A stretch of DNA of 64,000 nucleotides from Polaribacter sp. Hel1_33_78 (GTDB lineage: Bacteria; Bacteroidota; Bacteroidia; Flavobacteriales; Flavobacteriaceae): the NCBI RefSeq assembly GCF_900106075.1, contig NZ_LT629794.1:1220001-1284000 (forward strand). Reading direction: 5' to 3'. Positions 35,272 through 51,359 of the stretch are shown piece after piece. The stretch's first letter is position 1; each line of letters starts with the position of its first letter. The translations under genes and the position numbers were made by a program. The notes under the pieces are model-generated. The model had not been told where the DNA came from and made no database searches. It worked only from the letters and a program-made list of their open reading frames with translations.

Positions 35272-35304
35272 ATTTCGCAATTTAATTAATAAAATAACAA
35301 CTTT

Positions 35305-35320
35305 TATTACACGTGTAATA
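35305..35320. promoter_or_regulatory. LacI-type operator upstream of GH92 at 35355
   Basis: A perfect 16-bp palindrome, TATTACACGTGTAATA, with the central CG typical of LacI-family sites. Its inner part is identical to the longer palindrome at 46161-46188 next to the LacI gene. It lies just upstream of the -7 box at 35328, in the place where a repressor would block polymerase, and within the gap shared with the divergent Nudix-like gene. Confidence 0.78.
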
Positions 35321-35327
35321 TATTCAT

Positions 35328-35335
35328 TATATTTG
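35328..35335 (+). promoter_or_regulatory. Bacteroidota -7 promoter box for GH92 at 35355
   Basis: TATATTTG matches the Bacteroidota -7 consensus TAnnTTTG, with 19 bp between it and the ATG. The matching element for the aldehyde dehydrogenase gene (46192) has the same arrangement relative to operator and start, which supports both. Confidence 0.6.
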
Positions 35336-35354
35336 ATAATCAAATCATAAACTG

Positions 35355-37694
35355 ATGAAAAAAAGTATGTATGCAAGTTTGCTAATTCTTTTGATTGTTT
35401 TCAATCATCTAACAGCATATTCACAAAATAAATTAACCGATAAAGTAAATGTATTTATTGGTACAGGCGGTCACGGACATACTTTTCCACATGCAATGGT
35501 TCCTTTTGGTGCAGTTGCCGTAGGTCCAGATTGGGAAACCCAAGGGTGGGATGCTGCCGGTGGTTATCATTATGATGCAAAAAATATTTTAGGTTTTAGT
35601 CAAGTACATTTAAGTGGTACAGGCTTAATAGAAGGTGGTGATTTACTCCTAATGCCAACAGTAGGAAAGATAAAAGTAGACCCAGGAACTCATGAAAACC
35701 CCGATGCTGGTTATCGTTCACGCTTTTCTCATACGGATGAAAAAGCAACTCCTGGTTATTATCAAGTTCGTTTGTTAGATGATAATATCAACGCAGAAAT
35801 GACAGCTACAGAACGTGTAGGTTTTCATAAATACACCTTTCCGAAATCTGACAAATCACATGTTTTATTAGATTTGGTGCACCATATAAAAGGCGGAGGA
35901 AGTGGCGTAAAACAGGCTTATATTCAAATTAAAGATACGCAAACGGTTACTGGTTATAGAGTAACAAGTTCAGTTTGGGCAGCAAATAGACAATTGTATT
36001 TTGCTATCAAATTTTCAAAACCATTTATATCTAATGTAATATATGATCCTAGAGGATTGGTTTTTAATAAAAAGAAAAAATTCCTTTGGGATATGGTAGA
36101 TTATTCTGCTCCAAAAATTAAAACATTTTTCAATTTTAAGACTGAAGAGAATGAAGAAATAATGGTAAAAATTGCAATTTCTTCTGTATCAATGAAAAAT
36201 GCTTTAGAGAATTTAGAAACTGAAATTCCTCATTGGAATTTTACCAAAATTAAAAAAGAAGCTAGTCAAAAATGGGAGCAACAACTCCATAAAATAGTGG
36301 TAAAAGCAACGCCAGATATAGAAGCTAAATTTTATGCTGCTTTGTATCATAATAACATACATCCTACTATAAACCATGATGTAAATGGAGAATATAGGGG
36401 TATGGATCAAGAGGTTCATAAAACCAAAGATTTTACACATTACACCATGTTTTCTTTGTGGGATACTTTTAGAGCAGCACACCCACTTTTTACAATTATT
36501 CATCCAGAAAGAACAAAAGACATTGTGAGTACAATGCTTAATTTTCAAAAAGAAAATCCACGTAAAATGTTGCCTATGTGGTCTATGTATCAAAACGAAA
36601 ATACGTGTATGATTGGCTTACATGCATTACCTGTTATTGCTGATGCCTATTCTAAAGGATTGATAAAAGAGGATGCAAAAGATTTACTAAAATCAATGGT
36701 AATAAGCGCCAATCAACCCGGAATAGATAGTACAGCACACAGAAATATTTATCCATCTTATTATGGACAACAACACTATCTTAAAAAAGGATACCATCCA
36801 AATGATTTGGTAAGAACAGGCGTTTCTGTAACATTAGAACACGCTTATGATGATTGGGCTGTAGCTTTATTTTCTGATAAATTAGGTGATAAAAAAACCA
36901 CAGATACTTTTTTGAAAAGAGCACAATCCTTTAACAATGTTTGGGATGCTAATTCTAAATTTTTTCGGGCAAAACTCAATAATGAAAAATTTATAGAACC
37001 TTTTAATCCAAGAGCGTATCACAGAGAAGATTTTCATGATAGAGATTATACAGAAGGAAATGCGTGGCAATATTTATGGTTTGTGCCCCACGATGTATAC
37101 GGTTTAGCAGATTTATTAGGAGGCAAAAAAGCGATGAGTAAAAAGTTAGACAAACTTTTTACTTTACCAGAACAAGATTCTAAAGTTGGTGATGTTTCTG
37201 GTTTTATTGGCGATTATGCTCACGGAAATGAACCTTGTCATCACGTAGCGTATTTGTATAATTATGTTGGACAATCTCATAAAACACAAAAACTAATTCA
37301 TCAAATAGATAAAGAGTTTTATAAAGCTGCACCAGATGGATATATTGGTAATGAAGATGCTGGCCAAATGTCTGCTTGGTATGTGTTTAGTGCTTTAGGC
37401 TTTTATCCTGTAAATCCTGCTGGTGGAATTTATGTATTTGGTTCTCCTCTGGTTGAAGAAGCAACTTTAAATTTAGAAAATGGCAAAATATTTAGTGTAA
37501 GAGTAAAAAATTATGGAGATAAAAATATCTATATTAAATCTGTACAGTTAAATGGACAACCATATAACGAGGTATGGGTTAAACATGAAGATATTGTTAG
37601 AGGTGGGATATTAGAATTTACAATGTGTGCTAAACCTACAAAATGGGGTAAAAAATCAAAACCTGTGCCTTATGCAAACGGTAAAGTAAATTAA
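35355..37694 (+). CDS. GH92 exo-alpha-mannosidase, secreted, LacI-controlled
   Basis: The 779-residue enzyme has a signal peptide (about 1-23, HLTAYSQ). Motifs include FIGTGGHGHTFPHAMVPFG, WDAAGGYHYDAKNILGFSQVHLSGTG, SLWDTFRAAHPL, general-acid E567 in YTEGNAWQY, HGNEPCHHVAYLYN and GNEDAGQMSAWYV. All GH92 signatures are intact, and it groups with the 12567 paralogue. Unlike the other four GH92 genes it has its own operator and -7 box, and is followed after only 11 bp by a beta-propeller gene. It is thus tied to the LacI regulon rather than to the SusCD operon. Expected to remove terminal alpha-mannose in the periplasm. Confidence 0.95.
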   Translation: MKKSMYASLLILLIVFNHLTAYSQNKLTDKVNVFIGTGGHGHTFPHAMVPFGAVAVGPDWETQGWDAAGGYHYDAKNILGFSQVHLSGTGLIEGGDLLLMPTVGKIKVDPGTHENPDAGYRSRFSHTDEKATPGYYQVRLLDDNINAEMTATERVGFHKYTFPKSDKSHVLLDLVHHIKGGGSGVKQAYIQIKDTQTVTGYRVTSSVWAANRQLYFAIKFSKPFISNVIYDPRGLVFNKKKKFLWDMVDYSAPKIKTFFNFKTEENEEIMVKIAISSVSMKNALENLETEIPHWNFTKIKKEASQKWEQQLHKIVVKATPDIEAKFYAALYHNNIHPTINHDVNGEYRGMDQEVHKTKDFTHYTMFSLWDTFRAAHPLFTIIHPERTKDIVSTMLNFQKENPRKMLPMWSMYQNENTCMIGLHALPVIADAYSKGLIKEDAKDLLKSMVISANQPGIDSTAHRNIYPSYYGQQHYLKKGYHPNDLVRTGVSVTLEHAYDDWAVALFSDKLGDKKTTDTFLKRAQSFNNVWDANSKFFRAKLNNEKFIEPFNPRAYHREDFHDRDYTEGNAWQYLWFVPHDVYGLADLLGGKKAMSKKLDKLFTLPEQDSKVGDVSGFIGDYAHGNEPCHHVAYLYNYVGQSHKTQKLIHQIDKEFYKAAPDGYIGNEDAGQMSAWYVFSALGFYPVNPAGGIYVFGSPLVEEATLNLENGKIFSVRVKNYGDKNIYIKSVQLNGQPYNEVWVKHEDIVRGGILEFTMCAKPTKWGKKSKPVPYANGKVN

Positions 37695-37705
37695 TTTTTT
37701 TGTTA

Positions 37706-40369
37706 ATGAAGAATTTTAAACTAATTATATTTTTATTGCTTATTGTAGAAATATCTGCTCAAGGAATTATTGAAAATTCGAGTGGTGATTTGGAATTAGA
37801 TGAGATTCGAAAAGAAATAACTTCTAATATTACACAAAGAAAAACCTTTAAATTAAGAGCTATAAAAATGAAGTTATGGGCTGCTATGTTGCAACAACAA
37901 GGCATTCCTTTAAAAGAGTATGTTGCTATTGATAATAGGTTAAACAAAGTAACAAGATGGAATAATCTTTGGAGTGGAAATAAACCACAACAATTTTCAG
38001 ACAAGCAAATGCAAAAAGTTTGTTTAATTATTGATGCTGGTTATGCTATTTTAGAAAAATATCAAGTGATTGCTAATACTCGAAAATCAACAGATTTTAC
38101 CAGTAATCTAAATCTTTTAAACTACAACAAACAAAAAGAAATTCCTTGGACATCATACAAAGGAAATGAGGGTTTATCTGGTTATACAGGTGCTTTTGGA
38201 CCAACAAAAGGTGAGAAAGCTTGGAAATTCCCTATTGGTTTAGCTTGGGAATCAAAACCAGCTATAGAAGGAAGTCGTGTGTATATTTCATCACCAGGAA
38301 TTAGAACCAAGTTGTATTGTTTAGATTTAAATACAGGAAAAACAATTTGGAAAACCCAACAAGAAATAGAAATTATGGGTGATCAATTATACCACGCTCC
38401 TAATAACCAGTCAAGTCCAGTTATTTTAGAAAATTATATTATGTATAGAGAAATGGGTGCAAGAGGGAACAAAGGCCCAACAAAAGACGTGGTTTTGGTT
38501 GATAAAAAAACAGGGAAAATTACTAAAGAAATTGAAGTTGGTCATGTAGATTATAGAGCTGGTCATGCTCCTTTTACTGCTAATAATGATGTAGTTGTTT
38601 ACCCTTTTGGTGTGCAAGATATTCATACAACACCCCCTTTAACACAAGCTTTTGACAGGATGATCGCCAAGAATATAAAAACAGGTCAAAAGTTATATGA
38701 AATGTATATTGGTTACACGTTTTCAGAACCTCATTTAGATAAAGAAAATTGGGCATATCAAGGAACTGTAGAAGGGTATTTATATGCTTGGAAAGCTGAT
38801 GAAAGATTGCACAATAGGCCCAAGCCTAATTGGATGTTTAGAGCAGAAGGAGCTATAAATGATAAAGTAATTACCAGTGGAAACTTTGTTTTGTTTGGGG
38901 CAAATGATGGTGTTTTTTACTGCCTTAATAAAAGAACTGGTAAATTAATTTGGAAGCATAAAGTAGATATAATTGAAACTAACGCTTTCAGGCATTTTTC
39001 TGCACCTTATGTTGCAAACGGAAAAGTAGCTGTAGGTAGTGCAGACAAACATTTCTATGTTTTTGATATTAAAACTGGTAAAGTTTTAATCAATAAAAAG
39101 GCAGATGATTGGATTCGTTCAGCTCCAGTTGCATCAGAAAATAAATTCTTTTTTGCTACAATGAAAGGTACTTTATATGGTGTAGAATTTCATAAAAACA
39201 AATCCAAAGAATTGTTTAAAATACAAATTAGTCATCATCCTATTTTTGCTGATTTAAGCATAAAAGATGATAAAATTGTCATTAATGATTCTGATTTATA
39301 CACGCATTGTTACAATACAAAAGGTGATAAAATTTGGAAAATTAGCACCATAGATAGTTTTGTAAAAGATAATACAAGAATATTTTCTGATCAAATTGCA
39401 GGAGGTGCATATTACCAATCTAAACCAACAGCCGCAGATGATATGGTTTTTGTAGGTTCTCCCTCAAGGTTTATTTATGCTTTAGATGCTAAAACAGGAA
39501 AAGAAATTTGGAAACATGAAATTGGAGCATCTATTTCTGGAGCACCAACTTATTATCAAGGTAAAATTTATGTAGGTCAACAAGGAGGTGAAGATGATTT
39601 TTACTGCTTGGATGCAAAAACAGGTAAACTCATTTGGAAACAAAATGTAGATTGGGTTTGGGGTTCTGCTACTTGTTCTGATAATATGGTTTATATCCCA
39701 GGAATAGATGGTTATGCCTGGGCTTTAGATTCAAATACTGGAGCTATGATTTGGAAAAAACCATTTTCACGTTCAGTTTGTAGTGAACCAGCAGTAGAAG
39801 GAAATATCGTTATTTTTGGAAGTTGGGACGATTATTTAAAAGCGTTTAATAAAAAAACTGGAGAATTACTTTGGAAATATAATGGAGGAGGTACAGATTC
39901 TGGTGTAGCTGTCATAAAAGATGGCAAAGTGTATTTAAAAAATAAATGCCTCGATTTAAAAACCGGGAAATTGATTTGGGAGTTTAAAGATGGTAATAAC
40001 ATTTTTAATATTACACCAGCTGTTCACGATGGAAAAGTGTATATGTCTTGTTGGCATGGTCTGGGTTTAGGTGGCGTTTGTATAGAAGCAGTTGTGTATT
40101 GTATAGATGCAAAAACTGGTGATTTGAATTGGACACAATTAGGTGCAGGATTAAGCAGTCCTGTTATTGGTGAAAAAGGTAATGTATATTTCTCAAATAT
40201 TGCAGACCCATATTTTTACTGTGTTGACAGTGAAGGGAATTTTGATGGCACAACCAACATAAAATGGAAATATAAAATGGGTAATAAGGTAGAAGAATCT
40301 GCACCAGCTTTATATAAAGGAAGAGCATATATTATGTCTTCTGATGGATATTTACATGCTATTAAATAA
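37706..40369 (+). CDS. Secreted PQQ-type beta-propeller protein with N-terminal helical domain (paralogue A)
   Basis: I start at ATG 37706 (MKNFKLIIFLLLIVEISAQ signal peptide); a TTG lies six bases upstream. Residues ~20-120 form a helical region (ELDEIRKEITSNIT, KLWAAMLQQQGIP, LIIDAGYAILEKY) shared with paralogue B. The rest is a run of PQQ_2/tryptophan-docking blades: GKTIWKTQQ, GKLIWKHKV, GKEIWKHEIG, GKLIWKQNV, GELLWKYNG and others, 887 residues in all. PQQ-type here means the blade fold; no evidence of cofactor use was seen. It is translated 11 bp after GH92, so a role in glycan binding, sensing or oxidation is possible but unproven. Its last codons are duplicated as a fossil at 42253-42378. 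Confidence 0.8.
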   Translation: MKNFKLIIFLLLIVEISAQGIIENSSGDLELDEIRKEITSNITQRKTFKLRAIKMKLWAAMLQQQGIPLKEYVAIDNRLNKVTRWNNLWSGNKPQQFSDKQMQKVCLIIDAGYAILEKYQVIANTRKSTDFTSNLNLLNYNKQKEIPWTSYKGNEGLSGYTGAFGPTKGEKAWKFPIGLAWESKPAIEGSRVYISSPGIRTKLYCLDLNTGKTIWKTQQEIEIMGDQLYHAPNNQSSPVILENYIMYREMGARGNKGPTKDVVLVDKKTGKITKEIEVGHVDYRAGHAPFTANNDVVVYPFGVQDIHTTPPLTQAFDRMIAKNIKTGQKLYEMYIGYTFSEPHLDKENWAYQGTVEGYLYAWKADERLHNRPKPNWMFRAEGAINDKVITSGNFVLFGANDGVFYCLNKRTGKLIWKHKVDIIETNAFRHFSAPYVANGKVAVGSADKHFYVFDIKTGKVLINKKADDWIRSAPVASENKFFFATMKGTLYGVEFHKNKSKELFKIQISHHPIFADLSIKDDKIVINDSDLYTHCYNTKGDKIWKISTIDSFVKDNTRIFSDQIAGGAYYQSKPTAADDMVFVGSPSRFIYALDAKTGKEIWKHEIGASISGAPTYYQGKIYVGQQGGEDDFYCLDAKTGKLIWKQNVDWVWGSATCSDNMVYIPGIDGYAWALDSNTGAMIWKKPFSRSVCSEPAVEGNIVIFGSWDDYLKAFNKKTGELLWKYNGGGTDSGVAVIKDGKVYLKNKCLDLKTGKLIWEFKDGNNIFNITPAVHDGKVYMSCWHGLGLGGVCIEAVVYCIDAKTGDLNWTQLGAGLSSPVIGEKGNVYFSNIADPYFYCVDSEGNFDGTTNIKWKYKMGNKVEESAPALYKGRAYIMSSDGYLHAIK

Positions 40370-40396: not shown

Positions 40397-41074
40397 CTAT
40401 TTTTCTAATGGTTGAAGCATTTTAATGATTTGTAATGTTTCCTGAACTATTTGTTTTAGTTTATCAAAATCTTTGTTTTGGATAATGTCCTTTGAAATCA
40501 GTTTAGACCCCACACCTACACAAGTAACACCAGCATCAAACCATCCTTTTAGATTTTCCTTTGTTGTTGACACGCCACCTGTTGGCATAATATTGGTCCA
40601 AGGTTGAGGACCTTTAATAGCTTTTATGAAGTTTGGCCCATAAGTATCTCCCGGGAATAATTTTACTATCTCACAACCCAATTCTTCTGCATGGGCTATT
40701 TCTGTTAATGAGCCACAACCTGCAGACCATAATACTTTTCGGCGGTTACAAACAATGGCAATATCCTCTCGTAATACGGGGGTTACAATAAAATTAGCAC
40801 CCAATGACATATATAAAGATGCTGCTGCCGCATCGGTTATAGAGCCAACACCTAATATCATTCCTGGTAATTCCTTTATTACATATTTGGTAAGTTCTCC
40901 AAAGACCTCATGAGCAAAATCTCCTCGTGCTGTAAATTCCAATAACCTGGCTCCTCCATCGTAGCAAGCTTTTAAAATGTTCTTACTTAATTCTATATCT
41001 TTATGAAAAAATAATGGGACTAACCCTGTACTTTTCATCACTTGTGCTACTTCTATTCGTGTGTATTCTGCCAT
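40397..41074 (-). CDS. eda: KDPG / 4-hydroxy-2-oxoglutarate aldolase
   Basis: A 225-residue class I aldolase that cleaves 2-keto-3-deoxy-6-phosphogluconate to pyruvate and glyceraldehyde-3-phosphate in the cytoplasm. E46 in LLEFTARG and the Schiff-base lysine K138 in EIVKLFPG are in place, as are GVGSITDAAAA and MPTGGVSTTKENL. EFTARG instead of the enterobacterial EVTLR is common among Bacteroidota members. The gene is 10 bp downstream of the KDG kinase on the same strand, making a complete lower uronate/Entner-Doudoroff step. It is convergent with the beta-propeller gene to its left. Confidence 0.94.
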   Translation of the reverse strand: MAEYTRIEVAQVMKSTGLVPLFFHKDIELSKNILKACYDGGARLLEFTARGDFAHEVFGELTKYVIKELPGMILGVGSITDAAAASLYMSLGANFIVTPVLREDIAIVCNRRKVLWSAGCGSLTEIAHAEELGCEIVKLFPGDTYGPNFIKAIKGPQPWTNIMPTGGVSTTKENLKGWFDAGVTCVGVGSKLISKDIIQNKDFDKLKQIVQETLQIIKMLQPLEK

Positions 41075-41084
41075 TGTATTTTGT

Positions 41085-42131
41085 TTATCGTGCTACGCGT
41101 CCAGAGGCATCACCTTCCATTAATTTTTCTACTTCTTCAATCGTTACTAAGTTGGCATCTCCTTTAATGGTATGCTTTAAACAAGAGGCTGCTACTGCAA
41201 AATCAAGTGCATTTTGGTTATCTTCTGGATATTTAAGTAATCCATATATTAAACCTCCCATAAAAGAATCTCCTCCTCCAACTCTATCCACAATATCTGT
41301 AATTTGATATTGGCGAGTATAGAACATTTTTTTTCCATCGTATAAAACACCAGCCCAAGTATTATGAGATGCAGAAATAGAACCTCTTAATGTTGTAATT
41401 ACTTTTTTTGCGCTTGGGAATTTTTTTATCATTTGCTTACAAACAGATAAAAATGCTTCTGCTTTAATATCATGTCCATGTTTGTGCACATCTAACCCTT
41501 CTGGATGAATACCAAAATGCTTTTCTGCATCCTCTTCATTTCCTAAAATGATATCGCAATAAGATGTAATTTCTGTCATTATTTTTTCTCTATGTGCATC
41601 ACCACAATACTTCCAAAGTTTAGCTCTATAATTTAAATCTGTAGAAATTGTAATTCCTTTTGCGCTTGCAATTATAACGGCTTCTAAACAAACATCTGCA
41701 GCTCCTTGAGATATCGCAGGTGTAATTCCTGTCCAATGAAACCATTCTACACCATCAAAAACTGCATCCCAATCGATCATTCCTGATTCTATTTCAGCAA
41801 TAGCAGAATGTGCTCTGTCATATACCACCTTAGATCCTCTAGACACAGCACCTTTCTCTAAAAAATATATTCCGAGGCGATTGCCACCCCAAATAATTTT
41901 ATCAACCCCAACGCCTCTTTTACGCATTTCCATCATTGCACTTTCACCGATATCATTTTTCGGTAAACGTGTTACAAAATCTACATCTACTCCATAGTTT
42001 GCTAGTGAAACTGCTACATTAGACTCTCCTCCTCCGTATATGACATCAAAACTTGACGCTTGCGAAAATCTTAAAAATCCTTGAGGAGCTAAGCGCAACA
42101 TGATTTCCCCAAATGTTACTACTTTTTTCAT
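41085..42131 (-). CDS. kdgK: 2-keto-3-deoxygluconate kinase (PfkB family)
   Basis: The 348-residue cytoplasmic sugar kinase has the PfkB signatures YGGGESNVAVSLANYG near the N-terminus and DRVGGGDSFMGGLIYGLL near the C-terminus; the latter holds the catalytic aspartate and anion hole. LRLAPQGFLRFSQASSF and YDRAHSAIAE are typical of KDG kinases. It phosphorylates KDG to KDPG for the adjacent aldolase. The substrate would come from uronic acids, consistent with the GH88-like gene at 50001. The 259-bp upstream gap must carry its promoter. UxaC/UxuA/UxuB-type enzymes are not in the window. Confidence 0.93.
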   Translation of the reverse strand: MKKVVTFGEIMLRLAPQGFLRFSQASSFDVIYGGGESNVAVSLANYGVDVDFVTRLPKNDIGESAMMEMRKRGVGVDKIIWGGNRLGIYFLEKGAVSRGSKVVYDRAHSAIAEIESGMIDWDAVFDGVEWFHWTGITPAISQGAADVCLEAVIIASAKGITISTDLNYRAKLWKYCGDAHREKIMTEITSYCDIILGNEEDAEKHFGIHPEGLDVHKHGHDIKAEAFLSVCKQMIKKFPSAKKVITTLRGSISASHNTWAGVLYDGKKMFYTRQYQITDIVDRVGGGDSFMGGLIYGLLKYPEDNQNALDFAVAASCLKHTIKGDANLVTIEEVEKLMEGDASGRVAR

Positions 42132-42390: not shown

Positions 42391-45108
42391 TTATTCTACA
42401 GCGTGCACATATCCATCACCAGCAAGCGCAAACACTTTATCTCTATAAATACAAAGGGTAGATTCTTCAATACGAGTTCCCATTTTATAATTCCATAATA
42501 ATTTTCCTGTTTCTTGATCTAAACAGTACAAATACGGATAGTTTCCAGAACCAATATACAGTCGTCCATTAGCTAAAGCAGGTGCAGATAAACCTCCTCC
42601 ATCAGGAAATGTCCAATTTACTTTGGCTGTTTTTGCATATACGCTATACACTTTTGAGGTTAAAGGAACTCCTTTTAAACCAATACCAACTCTTGCTGTA
42701 AAAAAGCCTTTTCCGTTATGAAAAGCCGGGCTTGCATTAAAATTTGTATACTTTCCTTTATCACTTTCATTTGTGTTTCCTTCAGTTAAAATTTCACCAG
42801 TTTTAGAGTTAAAACTCATAAAAATATTACTGTGATGAGGCAAATAAATTTTACCGTCTTGAGAGATAAGGGTACCAGAATCTAAACCAACACCATTGGC
42901 TTTCCATATAATTTTTCCAGTTTTTTTATTGAAGGCGTATAAAGATCTACTCCAAGATCCAAAATAGACAATATCCCCATCAATAGCAGGTTCTGCAGGA
43001 ACTGATTTTGCAGTTGGGTACATCCAAACAATATGGCCGGTTTTCCCGTCTAAACAAACTGCATAACCATTAACTGTGGGCACGTAAACTAAGCCGTCAT
43101 CTACTGTTGCAGAACCCCAAACCCATCCACCTGGAACAGTTTGCTTCCAAACCACTTCGCCAGTTTCTGCATCTAAACAATAGAAGAAGCGTTCTCCTCC
43201 TTGTTGACCGACATATACTTTTCCGTCCATAATTGCAGGCCCAACTGAAATGGCTCCTCCCATTTCAAATTTCCATTTTTCTTTGCCTGTATCAGCATCA
43301 ACAGCATATAAAAAACCAGCAGGATTTCCAAAAAATAATTTATTATTTGCTGCTGTAGGTTTAGATTGATAATAGGTGCCACCAGAAAGTACATCCGTAA
43401 AAATACGTTCTCCTTCGTTGTTCCAATAAGCTGATAAAATGCTGTGTTTCCAAATTACTTTTCCGTCTAAATTCAAGCAAAACGTTAATAAATTACTGTC
43501 GTTTAAAACAATTTTATCTTCAGAAATTGTTAAATCTGCAAAAATAGGATGCGTGCTAATTTGCTTGCACCAAACTTGTTTTCCGTTTTTCTTATACTTG
43601 TAAATATTTCCTTGTACATCAGCGAAATAAATGTGCTTTTTAGTAGCAACTGGTTTTGCTCTTATCCAATCTTTTGTTTCTTTTTTCCAAAGAATATCAC
43701 CTGTATTTACATCAATTGCGTATGCATTTTTATTTGCAGAACCTATGAATAAAACGCCATTATCAATTAACGGATTTGTAAAATGTTTACGCGCTCTTTT
43801 TTCAATTTTGTTTACTTTTTTAGACCAAAGTAATTTTCCATCAACTTCATTTAAACAATAGATAACACCATCATTTGCGCCAAAATACACTTTTCCATCG
43901 TCCAATAATACTTTTGTATTTATAGCACCTTCAGCTTTAAAATTCCAAGCAATTAATTTTTTTTCATTGGTTGCTTGTTCGTTGTTAAAGTTTTTTTGAC
44001 CCGAAACACCAGGCTTTAAGTTTAAAGCGTATAAATAACCTTCAGTAGTGCCTTGAAAAACTTGATATTTAGACAAAACAGGTTCTGCAAGTGCATCAAT
44101 ATCACCTACATTAAAATCCCACATTTGTTTTTTATTATTTTTATCTTTACAAATTAATCTATTAAAATTTTGACAAACAGGCGGATATTGGTAAATATCT
44201 GAAACTCCAAAAGGATAAACCACATAATCGTCATTACTTGCAACAGGTGCATTTTGCGTTCTATAATCTACATGACCTGCATAAGATTTTGAGATGGTTT
44301 TACCTGTGTTTTTATCAATATACACTAGGTTTTTTGCTTGTCCTTTATTTCCTCCGTGACTATTTACCTCACGTAAAATTATTTTATCACCTTGAATTAC
44401 AGGTGTTGACATCATTGCAGGATATTTGTAAATACCAAACAAAGGATGCTCTTGTGTTGATTTCCAAAGAATTTTCCCTGTTTTTAAACTTAGCTTAAAA
44501 CACGTAGTGTACATTCCTGGTGAAGTTACATAAACACTACCATTTTCAATAACTGGACGCACATACCAACCCAAACCTACGGGGAATTTCCAAGCAGTTC
44601 TTCCATATTTTGGACCTGGTGCCTCTGAATATCCATTGTTGTGTTTGTTGGATTGAAACATGGGCCATTCAGCATCCATATTTCCACCTTTTGGAAATCC
44701 TTTTCCATCACTTTCAAAAGGTTTAAAAATTGAACCATTTTTTAAATACTCATTGTGAATCTCTTCTAATTTTGCAAAACCTGCATCAATTAAAACAGTC
44801 ATTTTTTGAGTTGCTTCTATTTTTTCTTTTCCTTTTTTTCTATTTACTTGGTTTTCTAGCTGATAATATTTTTTATCAATATCATAAAATGAACGTAAAT
44901 CTGCACCTAAATGTTGCAATGTTCCTACCCACATATACATCAAAACAGAATGTTCTCTAAAATTTTCTTTGGTTGTTGAATTGATAACAATTTCTTTACG
45001 AACTCTATCTATATCTTCACTTCCACTTGTGGTAAATGAGTTTTGAGCATCTATAACAAAAGTTTGTGTTAAAAATAAGACTGTAAAAAATAGTTTTGAG
45101 GTTTTCAT
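42391..45108 (-). CDS. Secreted PQQ-type beta-propeller protein with N-terminal helical domain (paralogue B)
   Basis: The 905-residue paralogue of 37706-40369 has a signal peptide ending near residue 22 (TFVIDAQ). The N-terminal helical part (EDIDRVRKEIVINSTTKENFREH, then TVLIDAGFAKLEEI) aligns with that of paralogue A. Blades follow: GKILWKSTQ, GKLLWSKKV, GDILWKKETK, GKEKWKFEMG, GEVVWKQTV, GHIVWMYP, GKIIWKANG, and the ending GDGYVHAVE. Its start is 8 bp after the lacI stop, so the two genes are probably one transcript read from the 46161 operator region. Co-transcription with a regulator suggests a periplasmic accessory role; this is inference. Confidence 0.8.
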   Translation of the reverse strand: MKTSKLFFTVLFLTQTFVIDAQNSFTTSGSEDIDRVRKEIVINSTTKENFREHSVLMYMWVGTLQHLGADLRSFYDIDKKYYQLENQVNRKKGKEKIEATQKMTVLIDAGFAKLEEIHNEYLKNGSIFKPFESDGKGFPKGGNMDAEWPMFQSNKHNNGYSEAPGPKYGRTAWKFPVGLGWYVRPVIENGSVYVTSPGMYTTCFKLSLKTGKILWKSTQEHPLFGIYKYPAMMSTPVIQGDKIILREVNSHGGNKGQAKNLVYIDKNTGKTISKSYAGHVDYRTQNAPVASNDDYVVYPFGVSDIYQYPPVCQNFNRLICKDKNNKKQMWDFNVGDIDALAEPVLSKYQVFQGTTEGYLYALNLKPGVSGQKNFNNEQATNEKKLIAWNFKAEGAINTKVLLDDGKVYFGANDGVIYCLNEVDGKLLWSKKVNKIEKRARKHFTNPLIDNGVLFIGSANKNAYAIDVNTGDILWKKETKDWIRAKPVATKKHIYFADVQGNIYKYKKNGKQVWCKQISTHPIFADLTISEDKIVLNDSNLLTFCLNLDGKVIWKHSILSAYWNNEGERIFTDVLSGGTYYQSKPTAANNKLFFGNPAGFLYAVDADTGKEKWKFEMGGAISVGPAIMDGKVYVGQQGGERFFYCLDAETGEVVWKQTVPGGWVWGSATVDDGLVYVPTVNGYAVCLDGKTGHIVWMYPTAKSVPAEPAIDGDIVYFGSWSRSLYAFNKKTGKIIWKANGVGLDSGTLISQDGKIYLPHHSNIFMSFNSKTGEILTEGNTNESDKGKYTNFNASPAFHNGKGFFTARVGIGLKGVPLTSKVYSVYAKTAKVNWTFPDGGGLSAPALANGRLYIGSGNYPYLYCLDQETGKLLWNYKMGTRIEESTLCIYRDKVFALAGDGYVHAVE

Positions 45109-45116
45109 ATATGTGC

Positions 45117-46127
45117 TTATTTTTTTTCTGTACTTTCTCTAAAAATAATCTTACCTTCTATTAATGTGTTTTCTGTAATGGGTTTATTATTAATAAGAAG
45201 TAGTAAATTTTCTAAAGCTTTTTCTGCAGCTTTTTTTAAATTCAATTTCACAGTGGTTAAGGGAGGGTTTAAGAGGCTTGAAATTTTTACATGTCCAAAA
45301 CCACTAACAGCAATATCATCTGGAATTTTCAAATCAAATTTTTCACAAGCATTGTAAACTCCTATCGCAATAGAATCATTAGCGCAAATAACTACCTCTG
45401 GTAAATTGTTGTAGTTTTCAAGAAAAGTAGTAAAATCTTTTTCTGCATTAGTTTTATCTAATTTTGTAACTAGACACCATTCTTCAGGAACAGAAATATG
45501 AGCTTCTTTTACTGCTTTATTAAAACCATTTAATCGTTGCTCACTGATACTGATTTCTTGATTTCCGCTGATAAACATCAGCTTTGTAAACCCTTTATTA
45601 ATAATCTCTTTTGCAAGCTGATATGATAAATTCTCATCATCAAAAAATACACCAATAGCATTTTTTAAAGAAACAGGTTTTCGATCTAAATATATAAAAG
45701 ATTTGTTATGCTTATTTAATAATTTATGTACTTTGTGTTTTTGAGAAGTAGCTACAGAATCAATGATAATTCCATCAACATTCATAGAAAGTAAAGATTT
45801 TACATTATCCAATTCAGCCTCTTCATTTTCAAATGATACCATTAATATAATGTTGTAACCAACTTTTTTAGCATTACTGTATAATTCTTCTATTATTGTA
45901 GAAAAGAAAGAATGATTTATTTTTGGCACAATTACTCCAATAGTATTTGTTTTTTTTGTGGATAAACTTCTACCTACAATATTGGGTATATAGCCTAATT
46001 CGTCTGCAACTTTCTTTACTTTTTCTCTTGTGCTTAGAGCAATATCAGGATGATTTTGTAGAGCTTTGGTTACAGTAACTCTAGAAATATTAAGTAAATC
46101 TGCTATATATTTTTGATTTATTTTCAC
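45117..46127 (-). CDS. LacI-family transcriptional regulator
   Basis: The 336-residue regulator has an N-terminal LacI helix-turn-helix (INQKYIADLLNISRVTVTKALQ) and hinge helix region (LGYIPNIVGRSLSTKKTNTIGVIV). A periplasmic-binding-protein-like ligand domain follows, with VDGIIIDSVATS, LAKEIINKGFTKLMFISG, VVICANDSIAIGVY and IPDDIAVSGFG. It is divergent from the aldehyde dehydrogenase operon, with a 28-bp palindrome in between, and probably represses that promoter, its own, and the GH92 promoter at 35355. The inducer is unknown; a KDG-like or mannose-derived metabolite would fit the regulated genes. Confidence 0.94.
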   Translation of the reverse strand: MKINQKYIADLLNISRVTVTKALQNHPDIALSTREKVKKVADELGYIPNIVGRSLSTKKTNTIGVIVPKINHSFFSTIIEELYSNAKKVGYNIILMVSFENEEAELDNVKSLLSMNVDGIIIDSVATSQKHKVHKLLNKHNKSFIYLDRKPVSLKNAIGVFFDDENLSYQLAKEIINKGFTKLMFISGNQEISISEQRLNGFNKAVKEAHISVPEEWCLVTKLDKTNAEKDFTTFLENYNNLPEVVICANDSIAIGVYNACEKFDLKIPDDIAVSGFGHVKISSLLNPPLTTVKLNLKKAAEKALENLLLLINNKPITENTLIEGKIIFRESTEKK

Positions 46128-46160: not shown

Positions 46161-46188
46161 AAAATATATTACACGTGTAATATATTTT
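46161..46188. promoter_or_regulatory. 28-bp perfect palindromic operator between lacI and aldehyde dehydrogenase
   Basis: Every one of the 14 base pairs of this inverted repeat matches, centred on the CG of ATTACACGTGTAAT with AT-rich arms. It lies 33 bp from the lacI start and 29 bp from the dehydrogenase start. On the + strand it precedes the -7 box at 46192. On the - strand a TATATTTTG stretch overlapping its left arm could be the lacI -7 box, implying autoregulation. The core repeats at 35305-35320. Confidence 0.88.
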
Positions 46189-46217: not shown

Positions 46218-47705
46218 ATGAGCGAATACAAACTACCAAATAAACCATTTGAGTACCAAAACTTCATAAATGGTGAATATATAAATTCATTAAGTAATGA
46301 AATTTTTGAGAGAAAAAGTCCTGCTCACGGAAATTTAATAGGAACTTATCAATTAAGTAATAAACAAGACACAGAACAAGCTATTTCTGTTGCCAAAAAA
46401 GCTTTTAAAAGCAATTATTGGTCAGATATGTCAGGTTCAGGTCGTGAAAAAATAATCAGAAAAGCAGCTTCGATTATAAAAGAAAGAGCTCACGAATTAG
46501 CTTTAATAGAAACTTTAGAATCAGGAAAACCGATTAGTCAGTCATTAAATGAAATGGAATGGGCAGCAGGTATTTGGGGTTATGCCGCAACTTTAGCAAG
46601 ACATATAGCTGGAGATGTAAATACAAATCTTGGAAAAGATATGACAGTGATGTTGCAAAAAGTACCAATTGGTGTAGTTGCTATGATAACACCTTGGAAT
46701 TTTCCTTTGCTAATTATTTCTCAAAAACTACCAATTGCACTGGCTGCAGGTTGCACCGCTGTTATAAAACCATCAGAAATGACTCCTGGAACAACATTGT
46801 TATTGGGAGGTATTTTAAAGGAAGCAGGTTTGCCAGATGGTGTTGTAAATATTCTTGCTGGTTATGGTGATCCAGTTGGAATGACGCTTTCTGAAAGCAA
46901 TAATGTAGATATGATCACTTTTACAGGAAGTACAGATGTTGGAAAACATATTATGAGAGCTGCATCTGGGAATCTTAAAAAAGTAGCCCTAGAATTGGGT
47001 GGAAAAAACCCTCAAATTATTTTTCCTGACGCAAATATAGACGCGCTTATAGATGCTGTTGTATTTGGTGTTTATTTTAATATGGGAGAATGTTGTAATA
47101 GTGGAAGTAGAATTATTATTCATGAAGATGTTGTTGAAGAATTTCAAGAAAAAGTAGTAGCGCATTCTAAAAAAGTAAAACTGGGCGATCCCTTAGATCC
47201 AAGTGTGAAATTTGGGGCAATCATCAACAAAATGCAACTAGATAAAATTAAAAAGTATGTAGATTCTGGAACTGCTCAAGGAGCAAAACTATTGTTGGGA
47301 GGAAATCAAATAACCATAAATAATGGCAATTATTTTGAACCAACAATATTTACGAATGTAAAACCGGAAATGGAAATTGCTTGCGAAGAAATTTTTGGAC
47401 CAGTACTTTCTATACTAACTTTTAAAACAAGAAAAGAAGCCATAGAAATTGCAAATAGTACACAGTTTGGGTTGTCTGCTGGTGTCTGGACAAAAGATCT
47501 AGATACTGCAATAATTATGACTAGAGAGATTGATGCAGGTACAGTTTGGGTTAATAATTGGATGTCTGGTAATCCTGAAATTCCTTTTGGAGGTTTTAAA
47601 CAAAGTGGAATTGGTAGAGAGTTAGGTCCAGGTGCTATTGATGAATTTATGGAAACTAAATCAGTAATGATTAAAACAGAAGTTTCTAACGGAAGCTGGG
47701 TTTAA
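46218..47705 (+). CDS. NAD(P)-dependent aldehyde dehydrogenase
   Basis: The 495-residue cytoplasmic enzyme belongs to the betaine-aldehyde/general ALDH superfamily. Visible are TPWNFPLL, the cofactor loop FTGSTDVG, E259 in ALELGGKNP, catalytic C293 in GECCNSGSR, EEIFGPVLS and PFGGFKQSGIGRE. It oxidises an aldehyde to a carboxylate. As first gene of the LacI-controlled operon it is followed 12 bp later by a CoA-transferase. Candidate substrates include lactaldehyde, alpha-ketoglutarate semialdehyde or malonate-semialdehyde-like compounds; none can be chosen from the sequence alone. Confidence 0.92.
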   Translation: MSEYKLPNKPFEYQNFINGEYINSLSNEIFERKSPAHGNLIGTYQLSNKQDTEQAISVAKKAFKSNYWSDMSGSGREKIIRKAASIIKERAHELALIETLESGKPISQSLNEMEWAAGIWGYAATLARHIAGDVNTNLGKDMTVMLQKVPIGVVAMITPWNFPLLIISQKLPIALAAGCTAVIKPSEMTPGTTLLLGGILKEAGLPDGVVNILAGYGDPVGMTLSESNNVDMITFTGSTDVGKHIMRAASGNLKKVALELGGKNPQIIFPDANIDALIDAVVFGVYFNMGECCNSGSRIIIHEDVVEEFQEKVVAHSKKVKLGDPLDPSVKFGAIINKMQLDKIKKYVDSGTAQGAKLLLGGNQITINNGNYFEPTIFTNVKPEMEIACEEIFGPVLSILTFKTRKEAIEIANSTQFGLSAGVWTKDLDTAIIMTREIDAGTVWVNNWMSGNPEIPFGGFKQSGIGRELGPGAIDEFMETKSVMIKTEVSNGSWV

Positions 47706-47717
47706 AAAGGGAAGTAA

Positions 47718-49259
47718 ATGAGAAATAAAAAGTTTCAAATTGTAAGTGCAGAAGAGGCTGTATCTTATATTAAAGATAATGATACGGTGGTTTTTGGTGG
47801 TGCAGGTGCTGGTCATGCAGTTCCTGATAAAGTGATGGAACATTTAGGAAAACGTTTTGTAGAGACAAATTCACCTAAAAACTTAAAAACCATTCATCCC
47901 TGTGGTATTGGCGATAATGATACAAGAGGATTAAACCATATTGCTTTTGAAGGTTTAATAGATACAAATATTGGCGGTTTTTGGGGAAATGCACCAAAAA
48001 TGTCTGCTTTAGCAAAAGAAAATAAGATAAAAGGCTATAATTTACCTCAAGGAGTATTAAGTCACTTAATGAGAGCTTCTGCTTCAAAAAAACCAGGTGT
48101 TATTACAAAAGTTGGCTTAAAAACATTTGTAGATCCTAATGAAGAAGGCGGTAAAATTAATGCGATTACAACAGAAAATTTTGTTTCTCACTTAATGATA
48201 AAAGGTTCAGATTATCTTTTTTATCCTTCAGTAAATGTAGATGTTGCCATTATTAGAGGCACTTCTATTGACAGTGAAGGTAATTTAACTATGGAAGAGG
48301 AGGTAGGTTCTTTTTCAATGCTATCAATTGCGCAAGCAGCAAAAGTAAATGGCGGAATTGTAATTGTGCAAGTGAAGAACATCAACACTAATAATTGTAT
48401 TCCAGGTACTATAAAAGTGCCTGGAGTATTTATCGACTATGTGGTGCAAGACAAAACGCAAGGAATGACTTTTATTTCTGCTTTTGATAAAGCTTTAGTG
48501 GATAGAAAAGAACAATATACCTCTGATGATTTAAATTTAACAGGTTTAAAGCGCATTATTATGCGTAGAGCTTCTCTAGAATTAAAAGAAAATATGTTTG
48601 TTAATTTGGGTTACGGTATGTCTGATGGCGTTCCAATTGTAGCCCAAGAAGAAGGCATTGCAGATAAATTAATCTTTATGATAGAGCAAGGTTCTACAGG
48701 TGGTATACCAACATCAGGATTAAATTTTGGCGCGATGTATAATCCAACAGCTATTTTAGATGATGGTTATCAGTTTGATTTTTTTCAAGGTGGCGGTTTG
48801 GATATTGCTTATTTAGGATTTGCTCAAATAGATCAATTTGGCAATGTGAATTCTAGCAGATTTGGAAACATTTTAACAGGTTGTGGAGGTTTTATTGATA
48901 TTTCACAGAACGCTAAAAAGGTTGTTTTCTGTGGGTCGTTTGCTGTAAAATCGCAACAAGAAATTACACCAAATGGATTAGAAATAAGCAATTCTGGTAA
49001 GTTTACTAAATTTATAAATAAAGTAGAACAAATTACTTTTTCTAGTGAATATGCTTTAGAAAATAATCAAGAAGTGTTGTATATAACGGAAAGAGCCGTT
49101 TTTCAATTAACAAAAGAAGGATTATTTCTGAAAGAAATTGCACCAGGAGTAGATTTACAAAAAGACATTTTAGAGATGATGGACTTTGAGCCTATCATGA
49201 ATAAACCACTTTCTTATTTTGATTCCAACATCTTCAAACATTGCAAACTAGAATTATGA
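47718..49259 (+). CDS. Acyl-CoA:carboxylate CoA-transferase (family I, propionate CoA-transferase-like)
   Basis: The 513-residue enzyme is a fused alpha-beta family I CoA-transferase. It has SAEEAVSYIKDNDTVVFGGAGAGHAVPD at the N-terminus, the first-half block EGNLTMEEEVGS, and the catalytic glutamate E323 in MIEQGSTGG, followed by GGGLDIAYLGFAQID. It moves CoA from a donor acyl-CoA to a carboxylic acid. The upstream dehydrogenase would make the acid and the downstream hydratase would act on the thioester. Its stop overlaps the hydratase start (ATGA), so translation is coupled. Distinguishing acetate, propionate, lactate or 3-keto acid acceptors is not possible here. Confidence 0.88.
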   Translation: MRNKKFQIVSAEEAVSYIKDNDTVVFGGAGAGHAVPDKVMEHLGKRFVETNSPKNLKTIHPCGIGDNDTRGLNHIAFEGLIDTNIGGFWGNAPKMSALAKENKIKGYNLPQGVLSHLMRASASKKPGVITKVGLKTFVDPNEEGGKINAITTENFVSHLMIKGSDYLFYPSVNVDVAIIRGTSIDSEGNLTMEEEVGSFSMLSIAQAAKVNGGIVIVQVKNINTNNCIPGTIKVPGVFIDYVVQDKTQGMTFISAFDKALVDRKEQYTSDDLNLTGLKRIIMRRASLELKENMFVNLGYGMSDGVPIVAQEEGIADKLIFMIEQGSTGGIPTSGLNFGAMYNPTAILDDGYQFDFFQGGGLDIAYLGFAQIDQFGNVNSSRFGNILTGCGGFIDISQNAKKVVFCGSFAVKSQQEITPNGLEISNSGKFTKFINKVEQITFSSEYALENNQEVLYITERAVFQLTKEGLFLKEIAPGVDLQKDILEMMDFEPIMNKPLSYFDSNIFKHCKLEL

Positions 49260-49975
49260 CAAGAAAAAGTAGTAGTATGACAGATTTAATTTTATCATCC
49301 TTACACAATGGCGTTTTTACAATTACGTTAAACTATCCAACAAAAATGAATTGTATGGGTTTTGAAATGTTAGAAGGATTGAATGATGCTGTTAATTTTG
49401 CAAGAAAAAGTGATGACGTTAAAGTAATCGTAATTACAGGTGCTGGCGAAAAAGCGTTTTCGTCGGGTGCAAATATTAAAGAATTCAAAGCTTTAAAAGG
49501 CATTGAAATTACACGTTGGATAGAATTTGGAAATGGTATTAATAACAATATTGAAACGATTAGCAAACCAACAATAGCTTATATTAATGGCTATGCAATG
49601 GGTGGAGGGTTAGAATTGGCTTTGGCTTGCGATTTTAGATTGGCATCTAAAAATGCCATTTTAAGTACTCCAGAAGTTTCTAATGGATGGCTTCCTGGTT
49701 GGGGAGGAATGACGAGAATTAGACGTTTGGTTGGAGAAGCAAATGCAAAAAGAATAATTCTTCTTTCAGAAAAAATTGATGCAAATTCAGCACTACAAAT
49801 AGGATTAATTACAAAAATTTCTACAAAAGAAGAACTGCATATTTTCACAAATAATTTGCTAGAAATAAAACCTCAAGTGTATGCGATGGCAAAATCTGCA
49901 TTAATGGATGCTACCAGAACTACTTATGGATCTGATATAAATTTTGATGTATTAGCGGTAAAAATTTCTTCCTAA
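49256..49975 (+). CDS. Enoyl-CoA hydratase/isomerase (crotonase family)
   Basis: I start at ATG 49256, in a four-base ATGA overlap with the CoA-transferase stop; ATG 49295 is an alternative. The 239-residue crotonase has oxyanion-hole segments SSGANIKEF and GYAMGGGLELALACDFRLAS. Glutamates E120 (GGGLE) and E140 (STPEV) occupy the two catalytic positions of true hydratases with the same 20-residue spacing, so hydration of a 2-enoyl-CoA is plausible rather than only isomerisation. The product would be a 3-hydroxyacyl-CoA. No acyl-CoA dehydrogenase or hydroxyacyl-CoA dehydrogenase is nearby, so this is not an ordinary fatty-acid beta-oxidation cluster. Confidence 0.88.
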   Translation: MTRKSSSMTDLILSSLHNGVFTITLNYPTKMNCMGFEMLEGLNDAVNFARKSDDVKVIVITGAGEKAFSSGANIKEFKALKGIEITRWIEFGNGINNNIETISKPTIAYINGYAMGGGLELALACDFRLASKNAILSTPEVSNGWLPGWGGMTRIRRLVGEANAKRIILLSEKIDANSALQIGLITKISTKEELHIFTNNLLEIKPQVYAMAKSALMDATRTTYGSDINFDVLAVKISS

Positions 49976-50000: not shown

Positions 50001-51359
50001 ATGATACTAAGTGATATAAATATTCAAGATTTAAAAAAACCTTTAGATACTTTTTGGAAGCTAGCGACTGAAAAAGCGTTGCTGTTACAAAAAGAATATG
50101 ATACAAACCAAGGTTCTCCTGTTTTTACGGTACATGGAAAATATACAACAAGAGGTTGGACAGAATGGACGCAAGGTTTTCAGTATGGAATTACATTATT
50201 AATTGCAGAAGCAACTTCAAATAAAGAGTTATTAAAAATCGGAAAAGAAAACACTTTTAATAATATGGCACATCATTTAAGTCATTTTGGTGTACACGAT
50301 CATGGTTTTAATAATTTAAGTACCTATGGAAACCTGCTACGTATGGCAAATCAAAATTTGTTTGATGCCAGCAAAGAAGAAAAAGAGTACTATAAACTGG
50401 CATTAAGTATGTCCGCTTCTGTGCAGGCTAAAAGATGGACAAACACAAAAGAGGGTGGTTTTATCTATTCTTTTAATGGACCACATTCCTTGTTTATAGA
50501 TACCATTCGTACTGCAAGAATAGTTCTTGCGGGTCATAAATTAAAACATCGTTCGCTAGATGAAAACGATACAAAAATAGATCTTTTACAACGTGCAATT
50601 GAACACGCCTTAACAACGGCAAAATATGCTGTTTTTTATGGAGAAGGTAGAGATATTTATGATGAATGGGGGCGTGTTGCACACGAATCTATTTTTAATA
50701 CAAATGATGGTAAGTATCGTTGTCCAAATTCACAACAAGGTTTTTCTGGTTTTACAACTTGGACTAGAGGTTTGGCTTGGGCAATGGTAGGTTTTTCTGA
50801 ATTTTTAGAATTTTTAGAAAGCGAGAAACTTTCTTTTGAAGGTCTTGAAGATGTAAAAGCAACACTTTTAAAAGCCGCAAAAGCAACTTGCGATTTTTAT
50901 ATAAAATATACTTCATCAAACGGAATTCCTTATTGGGATACTGGCGCGCCAAACATCAATAAACTAGGAAACTATAGCGAAAGAGAAGCAGAGATTAATA
51001 ACTCTTATGAACCGATAGATAGTTCTGCAGCAGCAATTGGGGCTCAAGGACTTTTAAGACTTTCTCATCTTTTAAAAGAAACAGAAGCAAAAGCTTCAAA
51101 AAAGTATATGCAAGCAGGTTTAGGAGTCTTACAAACTTTATTGTCTGATGATTATTTGGCAACAGAACCAACACATCAAGGTATCCTAAAACATTCTGTT
51201 TATCATTGGCCAAATGGATGGGATAATGTACCTAAAGGAAGTAAAGTTCCACAAAACGAATCTAGTATGTGGGGAGATTATCATTTGGTAGAACTCTGCT
51301 TTTTAGCAAAAAAAATATCCGAAGATAAATACTATACGTTCTTTGATATGATTCATTAA
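50001..51359 (+). CDS. GH88/GH105-like (alpha/alpha)6 hydrolase, cytoplasmic
   Basis: The 452-residue protein has no signal peptide. Its architecture follows unsaturated uronyl hydrolases: GVHDHGFNNLSTYG with D100, HSLFIDTIRTAR with D167, DEWGRVAHESIFN, GFTTWTRGLAWAMVGF, EPIDSSAAAIGAQGLLRL and SSMWGDYHLVELCFL. D100 and D167 fall where the catalytic aspartates of GH88 enzymes occur. It would hydrolyse a delta-4,5-unsaturated uronyl residue from an oligosaccharide, but no polysaccharide lyase is visible in the window, so the supplier of such ends is unknown. It ends the LacI-controlled operon, 25 bp after the hydratase. KdgK/Eda could process its product. Confidence 0.75.
   Translation: MILSDINIQDLKKPLDTFWKLATEKALLLQKEYDTNQGSPVFTVHGKYTTRGWTEWTQGFQYGITLLIAEATSNKELLKIGKENTFNNMAHHLSHFGVHDHGFNNLSTYGNLLRMANQNLFDASKEEKEYYKLALSMSASVQAKRWTNTKEGGFIYSFNGPHSLFIDTIRTARIVLAGHKLKHRSLDENDTKIDLLQRAIEHALTTAKYAVFYGEGRDIYDEWGRVAHESIFNTNDGKYRCPNSQQGFSGFTTWTRGLAWAMVGFSEFLEFLESEKLSFEGLEDVKATLLKAAKATCDFYIKYTSSNGIPYWDTGAPNINKLGNYSEREAEINNSYEPIDSSAAAIGAQGLLRLSHLLKETEAKASKKYMQAGLGVLQTLLSDDYLATEPTHQGILKHSVYHWPNGWDNVPKGSKVPQNESSMWGDYHLVELCFLAKKISEDKYYTFFDMIH

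Follow-up and report, generated by a model that had tools for sequence, protein, structure and literature searches.

Polysaccharide utilization loci (PULs) of Polaribacter that are rich in sulfatase and glycoside hydrolase family 92 (GH92) genes, and that also carry GH2, GH3, GH88 and GH99-like genes, have been described, and glucuronomannan was suggested as their target; a diatom wall polymer with β-D-glucuronic residues is described in the same article (Kappelmann 2018, PMC6298971). For C6-sulfated α-1,3-mannan, four enzymes were reported to convert the polymer to mannose and sulfate, and 18 further putative enzymes appeared inactive on it (Krull 2026, PMC13063451). Here we analyze a window of 64,000 nucleotides (nt) from Polaribacter sp. 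Hel1_33_78 (contig NZ_LT629794.1, positions 1,220,001 to 1,284,000), in which a PUL of this published kind, for diatom sulfated α-mannan, contains genes for an aldehyde dehydrogenase (ALDH), a coenzyme A (CoA)-transferase, a crotonase and a GH88-like protein. Like the Type-A sulfated α-mannan PULs of Polaribacter and its relatives, the window is rich in GH92 and sulfatase genes and has GH2, GH3, GH88 and GH99-like members; apart from the CoA module it holds SusC/SusD-type genes, two GH99-like, five GH92, two GH3 and one GH2 gene, eight sulfatase open reading frames (ORFs) and a phosphomannose isomerase (PMI)-like protein. The CoA module is not explained in the literature examined: the section of PMC6298971 on these PULs names GH88 and no CoA genes, and the main text of PMC13063451 contains none of the terms dehydrogenase, hydratase, GH88 and KDG. 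In open-access literature from one library, which is no proof of novelty, uronoyl-CoA, glucuronyl-CoA and similar terms were not found, and titles and abstracts revealed no work linking a glycan or GH88 to CoA enzymes. In agreement with the initial annotation of this DNA, we know of no standard sugar pathway that uses an ALDH, a CoA-transferase and a crotonase together.

That annotation had grouped these three genes as a trio within a glycan PUL. All three ORFs are present on the + strand, among SusC/SusD-type, GH92 and sulfatase genes, and the gene directly after them encodes a GH88-like protein, not a mannosidase:

46218..47705, + strand: ALDH, 495 aa (PF00171, E 6.5e-171)
47718..49259, + strand: family I CoA-transferase of the Pct/YdiF type, 513 aa (PF01144, E 4e-31)
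49256..49975, + strand: crotonase, start ATG 49256 (PF00378, E 5.5e-45)
50001..51359, + strand: GH88-like (unsaturated uronyl hydrolase-like) protein (PF07470, 38.8 bits, cut-off 26.6)

The genes share one direction, with 12 nt between ALDH and CoA-transferase, a 4-nt ATGA overlap between CoA-transferase and crotonase, and 25 nt between crotonase and the GH88-like gene. The crotonase ORF as listed begins at TTG 49241, 15 nt before ATG 49256; the latter, overlapping the transferase stop as ATGA, is most likely the true start, and the overlap bears out the translational coupling claimed earlier for this pair.

To judge from sequence comparison, the conserved unit is the CoA-transferase with the crotonase and the GH88-like protein rather than the ALDH trio, since ALDH occurs in six loci only, the crotonase in 16 of 16, and the GH88-like gene tracks the transferase genome-wide. 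The CoA-transferase belongs to a clade with the motifs GAGAGHAVPD and GGFWGNAP. Loci (L numbers) were collected by scanning genome contigs with two short motifs of this clade as patterns, a procedure that favors motif-keeping members. The scan yielded 28 loci; L031 and L032 are unrelated (25–28% identity) and were excluded from every count, and L034 coincides with L006. Both L028 and L030 end within the CoA-transferase, which puts the downstream gene out of view, and L027 stops at the contig edge. In all 16 non-Desulfobulbaceae loci that show at least 58% identity and leave room downstream (the window, L005–L008, L013, L015–L022, L026 and L033), the crotonase is the next gene after the CoA-transferase, on the same strand; in L024, with a 42% identical transferase, no crotonase lies downstream. 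A GH88-like gene shares the locus with the CoA-transferase at 13 distinct places, seven in Bacteroidota and six of the Desulfobulbaceae type, the window protein being 49–50% identical to the latter. ALDH, found in the window, L005, L007, L022, L030 and L033, was therefore rejected as the core of the unit, contrary to its place in the proposed trio. The suggested conservation of the trio beside GH88, KdgK and Eda genes in other flavobacteria was partly borne out: ALDH, CoA-transferase, crotonase and GH88-like genes lie together in L033, with KdgK and Eda nearby on the other strand, and the first four also share one locus in L005, L022 and L007.

The tie between CoA-transferase and GH88-like protein extends to whole genomes (G numbers). 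A GH88-like gene was found anywhere in the genome for 21 of the 25 CoA-transferase genomes; 11 of the 15 with none in the locus view carry it elsewhere, meaning another contig or place in drafts, so cut loci may still have both genes as neighbors. All 14 Bacteroidota-type CoA-transferase genomes, a count that takes in Balneolaceae and Persicobacter, possess it (11 plus the genome of the window, G000, and G256 and G377), against 29 of 395 background genomes (Fisher p 1e-15, two shared genomes removed); these 29 include the genome of the window and G557, which has the same matches as G780, the genome of L021. All three Acidobacteriota genomes (L017–L019) have a GH88-like gene as well. Within the family of G794, titled Desulfobulbaceae, Desulfofustis or Desulfobacterales, the gene occurs in 7 of 93 genomes, and these are seven of the eight known CoA-transferase genomes (hypergeometric p 8e-10); among the 86 others, G786 has the CoA-transferase, and the status of the remaining 85 comes from the pattern-based scan.

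The coupling is one-way: most GH88-like genomes are without the CoA-transferase (present in 2 of 395), as expected if the transferase is a feeder step. In a quick tree of 51 GH88-like sequences, where one of the two G557 genes was labeled as the transferase one by choice, the transferase state changes seven times, at least five of them forced by well-supported branches, which suggests recruitment on several occasions. As a control, GH92 was counted: 140 of 395 background genomes carry it, as do 12 of the 14 CoA-transferase genomes of Bacteroidota type, none of the 8 of Desulfobulbaceae type and 3 of the 6 others. GH88-like genes are present in 14 of these 140; where a GH92 carrier also has the CoA-transferase, the figure is 12 of 12. 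That lifestyle alone accounts for the tie to GH88 was rejected on this control, which is much weaker and stands at 0/8 in the Desulfobulbaceae type. Even without a mechanism, the one-way coupling of a CoA-transferase to a GH88 clade, seen in Bacteroidota, Acidobacteriota and sulfate reducers alike, offers a specific link that can be tested. Members of the CoA-transferase clade are rare, being present in 3 of 397 Flavobacteriaceae genomes (E<=1e-60) and 2 of 395 Bacteroidota genomes (E<=1e-150), the genome of the window included in both; that genome holds a single close copy, the sole other match being 23% identical over a quarter of the length. Two rhizobial CoA-transferases (46–48% identity) were set aside as lying in other contexts, one adjoining phaC.

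The GH88-like profile matches the unsaturated glucuronyl hydrolases (UGLs) 1vd5/2ahf, and the 10 best Foldseek matches of its AlphaFold2 model are all GH88 UGLs. The active-site residues H99-D100-x-G-F, D167, H228, Q246, W254, R256 and W260 are retained, so the protein is predicted to have the GH88 fold and active site and to be a hydrolase. Compared with the GH88 UGLs 1vd5, 3wiw and 2zzr, it shares predicted fold and active-site residues but forms a clade of its own that is tied to CoA enzymes; it is likely located in the cytoplasm, as no signal peptide was seen by eye. The clade is 23–26% identical to GH88-type proteins in plasmid records, where no close relative was found (best 25.5% identity).

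The best PDB match of the CoA-transferase is Escherichia coli YdiF (2ahu, 448 bits); E323 aligns with YdiF E333 and is invariant across 18 alignment rows, and the CoA_trans domain together with this catalytic glutamate places the protein in family I with YdiF and Pct. It scores 396 bits against the FadX model, under the cut-off of 750, and the earlier label "propionate-CoA-transferase-like" is a fair one for this Pct/YdiF/FadX family member. Among the matches listed, the crotonase is near the 3-hydroxypropionyl-CoA dehydratase 5zai and Nmar_1308. Both hydratase glutamates ascribed to it earlier, E120 and E140 (numbered from ATG 49256), are conserved without exception in the 16 alignment rows; we take them to be the equivalents of the glutamate pair of the rat enzyme. 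Its C terminus is shortened: the canonical EGxxAFxEKRxPxF segment is missing in 16 of 16 non-Desulfobulbaceae rows and present in the three Desulfobulbaceae rows.

Co-regulation of the module with a mannosidase is supported by the following features:

45117..46127, − strand: LacI-family regulator, divergent from ALDH (PF00356 plus periplasmic-binding-like domain)
46167..46182, no strand: likely LacI operator TATTACACGTGTAATA, within a 28-nt perfect palindrome in the LacI/ALDH gap
35305..35320, no strand: second exact copy of TATTACACGTGTAATA, 34 nt upstream of the GH92 gene at 35355
35355..37694, + strand: GH92 α-mannosidase, operator upstream (PF07971, E 3.6e-167)

Two matches to TATTACACGTGTAATA with up to three mismatches arose in 12 of 100 shuffles and are thus not rare; here, both copies match exactly, and under a first-order model the number of exact matches expected in the window is 2e-5. 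The operator core TTACACGTGTAA occurs nine times in 5 of 147 sequences (1.52 Mb with overlaps): twice in the window and in L007, once in L022 and L033, and three times in L030. All five loci have ALDH, all but L033 (in the stretch seen) have the LacI gene, and the core again precedes a GH92 gene in L030 and L033. No exact copy was found in L005 and L006, where LacI is present; LacI homologues cluster in six distinct loci, window included. Since the same exact palindrome stands before the GH92 gene and in the LacI/ALDH gap, the sequences support a single LacI regulon shared by the module and a mannosidase; the initial annotation had held the trio to be regulated with a mannosidase.

It is very unlikely that the module is an ordinary salvage system for short-chain acids (acrylate, 3-hydroxypropionate or 3-hydroxybutyrate) that came to lie in the PUL but is unconnected with the glycan. 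Although the specificity of the family is broad and the marine habitat is rich in acrylate, the tight genome-wide tie to the GH88-like gene in two unrelated groups and the operator common to the module and GH92 argue against such an origin. The lactaldehyde or acrylate chemistry considered in the initial annotation may still apply but leaves the GH88 link unexplained.

We conclude that the module is probably LacI-controlled, cytoplasmic and directed at uronate-bearing fragments of a mannose-rich glycan. As its mechanism we tentatively prefer a CoA-dependent opening of saturated uronides, followed by GH88 hydrolysis, 2-keto-3-deoxygluconate (KDG) kinase and aldolase. The CoA-transferase would place CoA on the carboxylate at C6 of a uronide such as a terminal β-D-glucuronic acid (GlcA) on mannose. 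The thioester would acidify H5, allowing the crotonase to syn-eliminate H5 and the 4-OH to give a 4,5-unsaturated uronoyl-CoA; relative to the thioester, C5 would occupy the alpha and the 4-OH the beta position, the arrangement of a 3-hydroxyacyl-CoA. Crotonases add water syn. The CoA-transferase might then shift CoA to the next uronide and free the 4,5-unsaturated one, an activate-dehydrate-recycle logic proposed by analogy with pairs of hydroxyacid CoA-transferase and dehydratase such as propionate CoA-transferase and lactoyl-CoA dehydratase; in the present scheme a crotonase would serve as the dehydratase and a uronide as the acid. The ferulate Fcs-Ech-Vdh trio also groups CoA activation, crotonase and aldehyde dehydrogenase; in the window, however, a CoA-transferase stands in place of the ligase, and the two hydratase glutamates are retained in the crotonase.

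The substrate of a GH88 enzyme has to be a 4,5-unsaturated uronide. The GH88-like protein would hydrolyze this product to 4-deoxy-5-keto-uronate (DEH) and mannose, and this later step would pull the crotonase equilibrium forward. DEH would be converted to KDG by some reductase and then enter the KDG kinase and Eda reactions, and the ALDH may be accessory, acting on a sugar aldehyde such as DEH. Enzymes of the two last families are encoded in the window and fit the product of the proposed route:

41085..42131, − strand: PfkB kinase of the KDG kinase type (PF00294)
40397..41074, − strand: 2-keto-3-deoxy-6-phosphogluconate/2-keto-4-hydroxyglutarate (KDPG/KHG) aldolase, Eda (NF005499, 375.6 bits, above the cut-off of 275)

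Against the NCBIfam model of a KHG/KDPG aldolase-kinase fusion, the PfkB kinase scores 484.5 bits, under the cut-off of 700. A lyase generates a 4,5-unsaturated uronide by removing glycan from O4 of an inner uronate and for this reason would leave a terminal GlcA side residue untouched; a CoA-transferase together with a hydratase working in reverse could act on such a residue. No lyase family was detected in Pfam scans of 36 window ORFs, among which β-helix proteins occur, and Pfam misses some polysaccharide lyase (PL) families. Syn elimination has been proposed for PL33 lyases acting on GlcA (PMC11848413), and the terms syn and anti elimination are explained for alginate and pectate lyases (PMC6796002).

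In a general form, which we regard as possible, bacteria might open saturated uronic acid glycosides through a CoA thioester of the sugar carboxylate and crotonase dehydration to a 4,5-unsaturated sugar handed to GH88, a CoA-dependent counterpart of polysaccharide lyases acting on terminal uronates. If true, bacteria would have, in addition to lyases and glucuronidases, another means of breaking acidic glycans; GH88 genes without a lyase would be explained, and an intracellular part, so far uncharacterized, of an abundant diatom-mannan PUL would gain a role. A CoA route into acidic sugars, if shown at the bench, would represent new sugar chemistry.

Several points weigh against CoA-dependent opening. 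A lyase encoded beyond the window might supply GH88 with its substrate. The change in the transferase pocket motif, considered at first a strong sign of a sugar substrate, is weak evidence for a sugar-sized pocket, because E. coli YdiF has GAGGG at this motif. The crotonase type of the window was not found in Desulfobulbaceae-type genomes, where the best match per genome reaches 181–204 bits against 299–353 bits for true members left out of the profile, and an acyl-CoA dehydrogenase follows the transferase in five of the eight loci of this type (L010, L011, L012, L014 and L029). No GH88-like gene was found in 4 of the 25 CoA-transferase genomes: G779 (L020), G786 (L029, 2.7 Mb), and G782 and G784, both Bryobacterales with transferases only 42–44% identical. 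GH92 is also enriched in CoA-transferase genomes (p 2e-4). The ALDH lies outside the core scheme, its role unexplained, and the enzyme converting DEH to KDG was not identified in the genome of the window. A Pfam search of this genome gave neither KduI nor UxaC, a result that counts in favor of CoA-dependent opening; the KduI route and GlcA breakdown via UxaC were rejected on this search, although UxaC lies in the GH88-like loci L005, L076 and L077. A relative of the short-chain dehydrogenase/reductase (SDR) of L005 was likewise rejected, its four matches in the genome being only 32–38% identical; of their flanks, L106, read as ORFs, looks like acyl-CoA metabolism, and L107 and L108 gave no tblastn match to six window proteins.

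Elsewhere, GH88-like genes (L067–L083) mostly adjoin an SDR and one of two other oxidoreductase modules. A 386-aa Gfo/Idh/MocA protein occurs in nine such loci and an old-yellow-enzyme relative, recognized by eye, in five; neither accompanies the other or the CoA-transferase in any of the mapped loci, from which L084, L085 and L087 were lost through the clustering cut-off. Such alternative modules beside GH88 mean that all three could act after it, a further point against CoA-dependent opening. The CoA enzymes would then stand downstream of the GH88-like protein: ALDH would oxidize DEH or the freed sugar, the acid would take CoA, and the crotonase would hydrate, dehydrate or cleave the thioester, a scheme close to the aldehyde-acid-acyl-CoA idea of the initial annotation. 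It is favored by the relatives of the ALDH in the PDB, the closest being 3u4j (506 bits) and L-sorbosone dehydrogenase, a sugar-aldehyde oxidizer (7w5l, 494 bits); among NCBIfam models, the ALDH is under the cut-off of all 25 shown of 44 matched, none of the 25 being an L-sorbosone model. Because KduI, UxaC and an SDR above 38% identity to that of L005 were not found in the genome of the window, another fate of DEH may be needed. On the other hand, ALDH is missing from most CoA-transferase loci, some of them cut short, and KdgK and Eda in the window and L033 argue for the usual KDG end. With the missing crotonase type, the ALDH, the DEH-to-KDG step and the alternative modules all counting as counter-evidence, we keep CoA-dependent opening as a tentative first choice and rate the downstream placement as possible, in second place.

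Less likely than either is that the uronide bears a short acid or alcohol, such as an ether- or ester-linked hydroxyacid, which the GH88-like protein frees and the trio catabolizes as a 3-hydroxyacid or enoate. The Pct/YdiF-like family of the transferase, the proximity of the crotonase to 5zai and Nmar_1308, and the acryloyl-CoA-reductase-like dehydrogenase added in Desulfobulbaceae-type loci (386 bits, cut-off 640) would suit such a substrate. So would the plasmid of Fusobacteria bacterium ZRK30 (L112:7992-15200), where a CoA-transferase is grouped with a crotonase, a GntP permease, MaoC, an acyl-CoA dehydrogenase and EtfBA; however, this transferase is only 45% identical, its crotonase has an ordinary C terminus, and the cluster looks like an ordinary short-acid cluster. 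Moreover, we know of no substituent of this sort in these polymers, no search for one having been made.

Other genes recur near the CoA-transferase. An Nramp-like permease (PF01566), perhaps a carboxylate or metal carrier, adjoins it in six loci: L005 (13723-14955), L006, L007, L015, L016 and L033. A MaoC-like hydratase, assigned by eye and backed by similarity to an annotated MaoC, lies near it in five (L011:18301-18738, L015:1-393, L017:6878-7420, L018 and L025), and a glycyl-radical-enzyme-like ORF, also by eye, lies near the CoA-transferase of a vent Bacteroidota metagenome-assembled genome (L008:6046-8475). The operon at L011:9120-18287 comprises GntR, CoA-transferase, acryloyl-CoA-reductase-like dehydrogenase, GH88-like, Gfo/Idh/MocA, 3-hydroxyacyl-CoA dehydrogenase-like, SDR and AroE-like genes, followed by a DctP-like gene (by eye).

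In the window, a gene with pyrroloquinoline quinone (PQQ)-type repeats stands beside the LacI gene:

42391..45108, − strand: PQQ-repeat β-propeller protein (PF13570, PF13360)

Its N terminus is signal-peptide-like by eye. A second PQQ-repeat β-propeller protein is encoded at 37700-40369; both are about 900 aa long with an N-terminal part that has no Pfam match, and homologues recur in other CoA-transferase loci. A Nudix-like ORF (by eye) at 34702-35376 on the − strand overlaps the operator and the GH92 start with its 5' end, and a homologue is found in L005.

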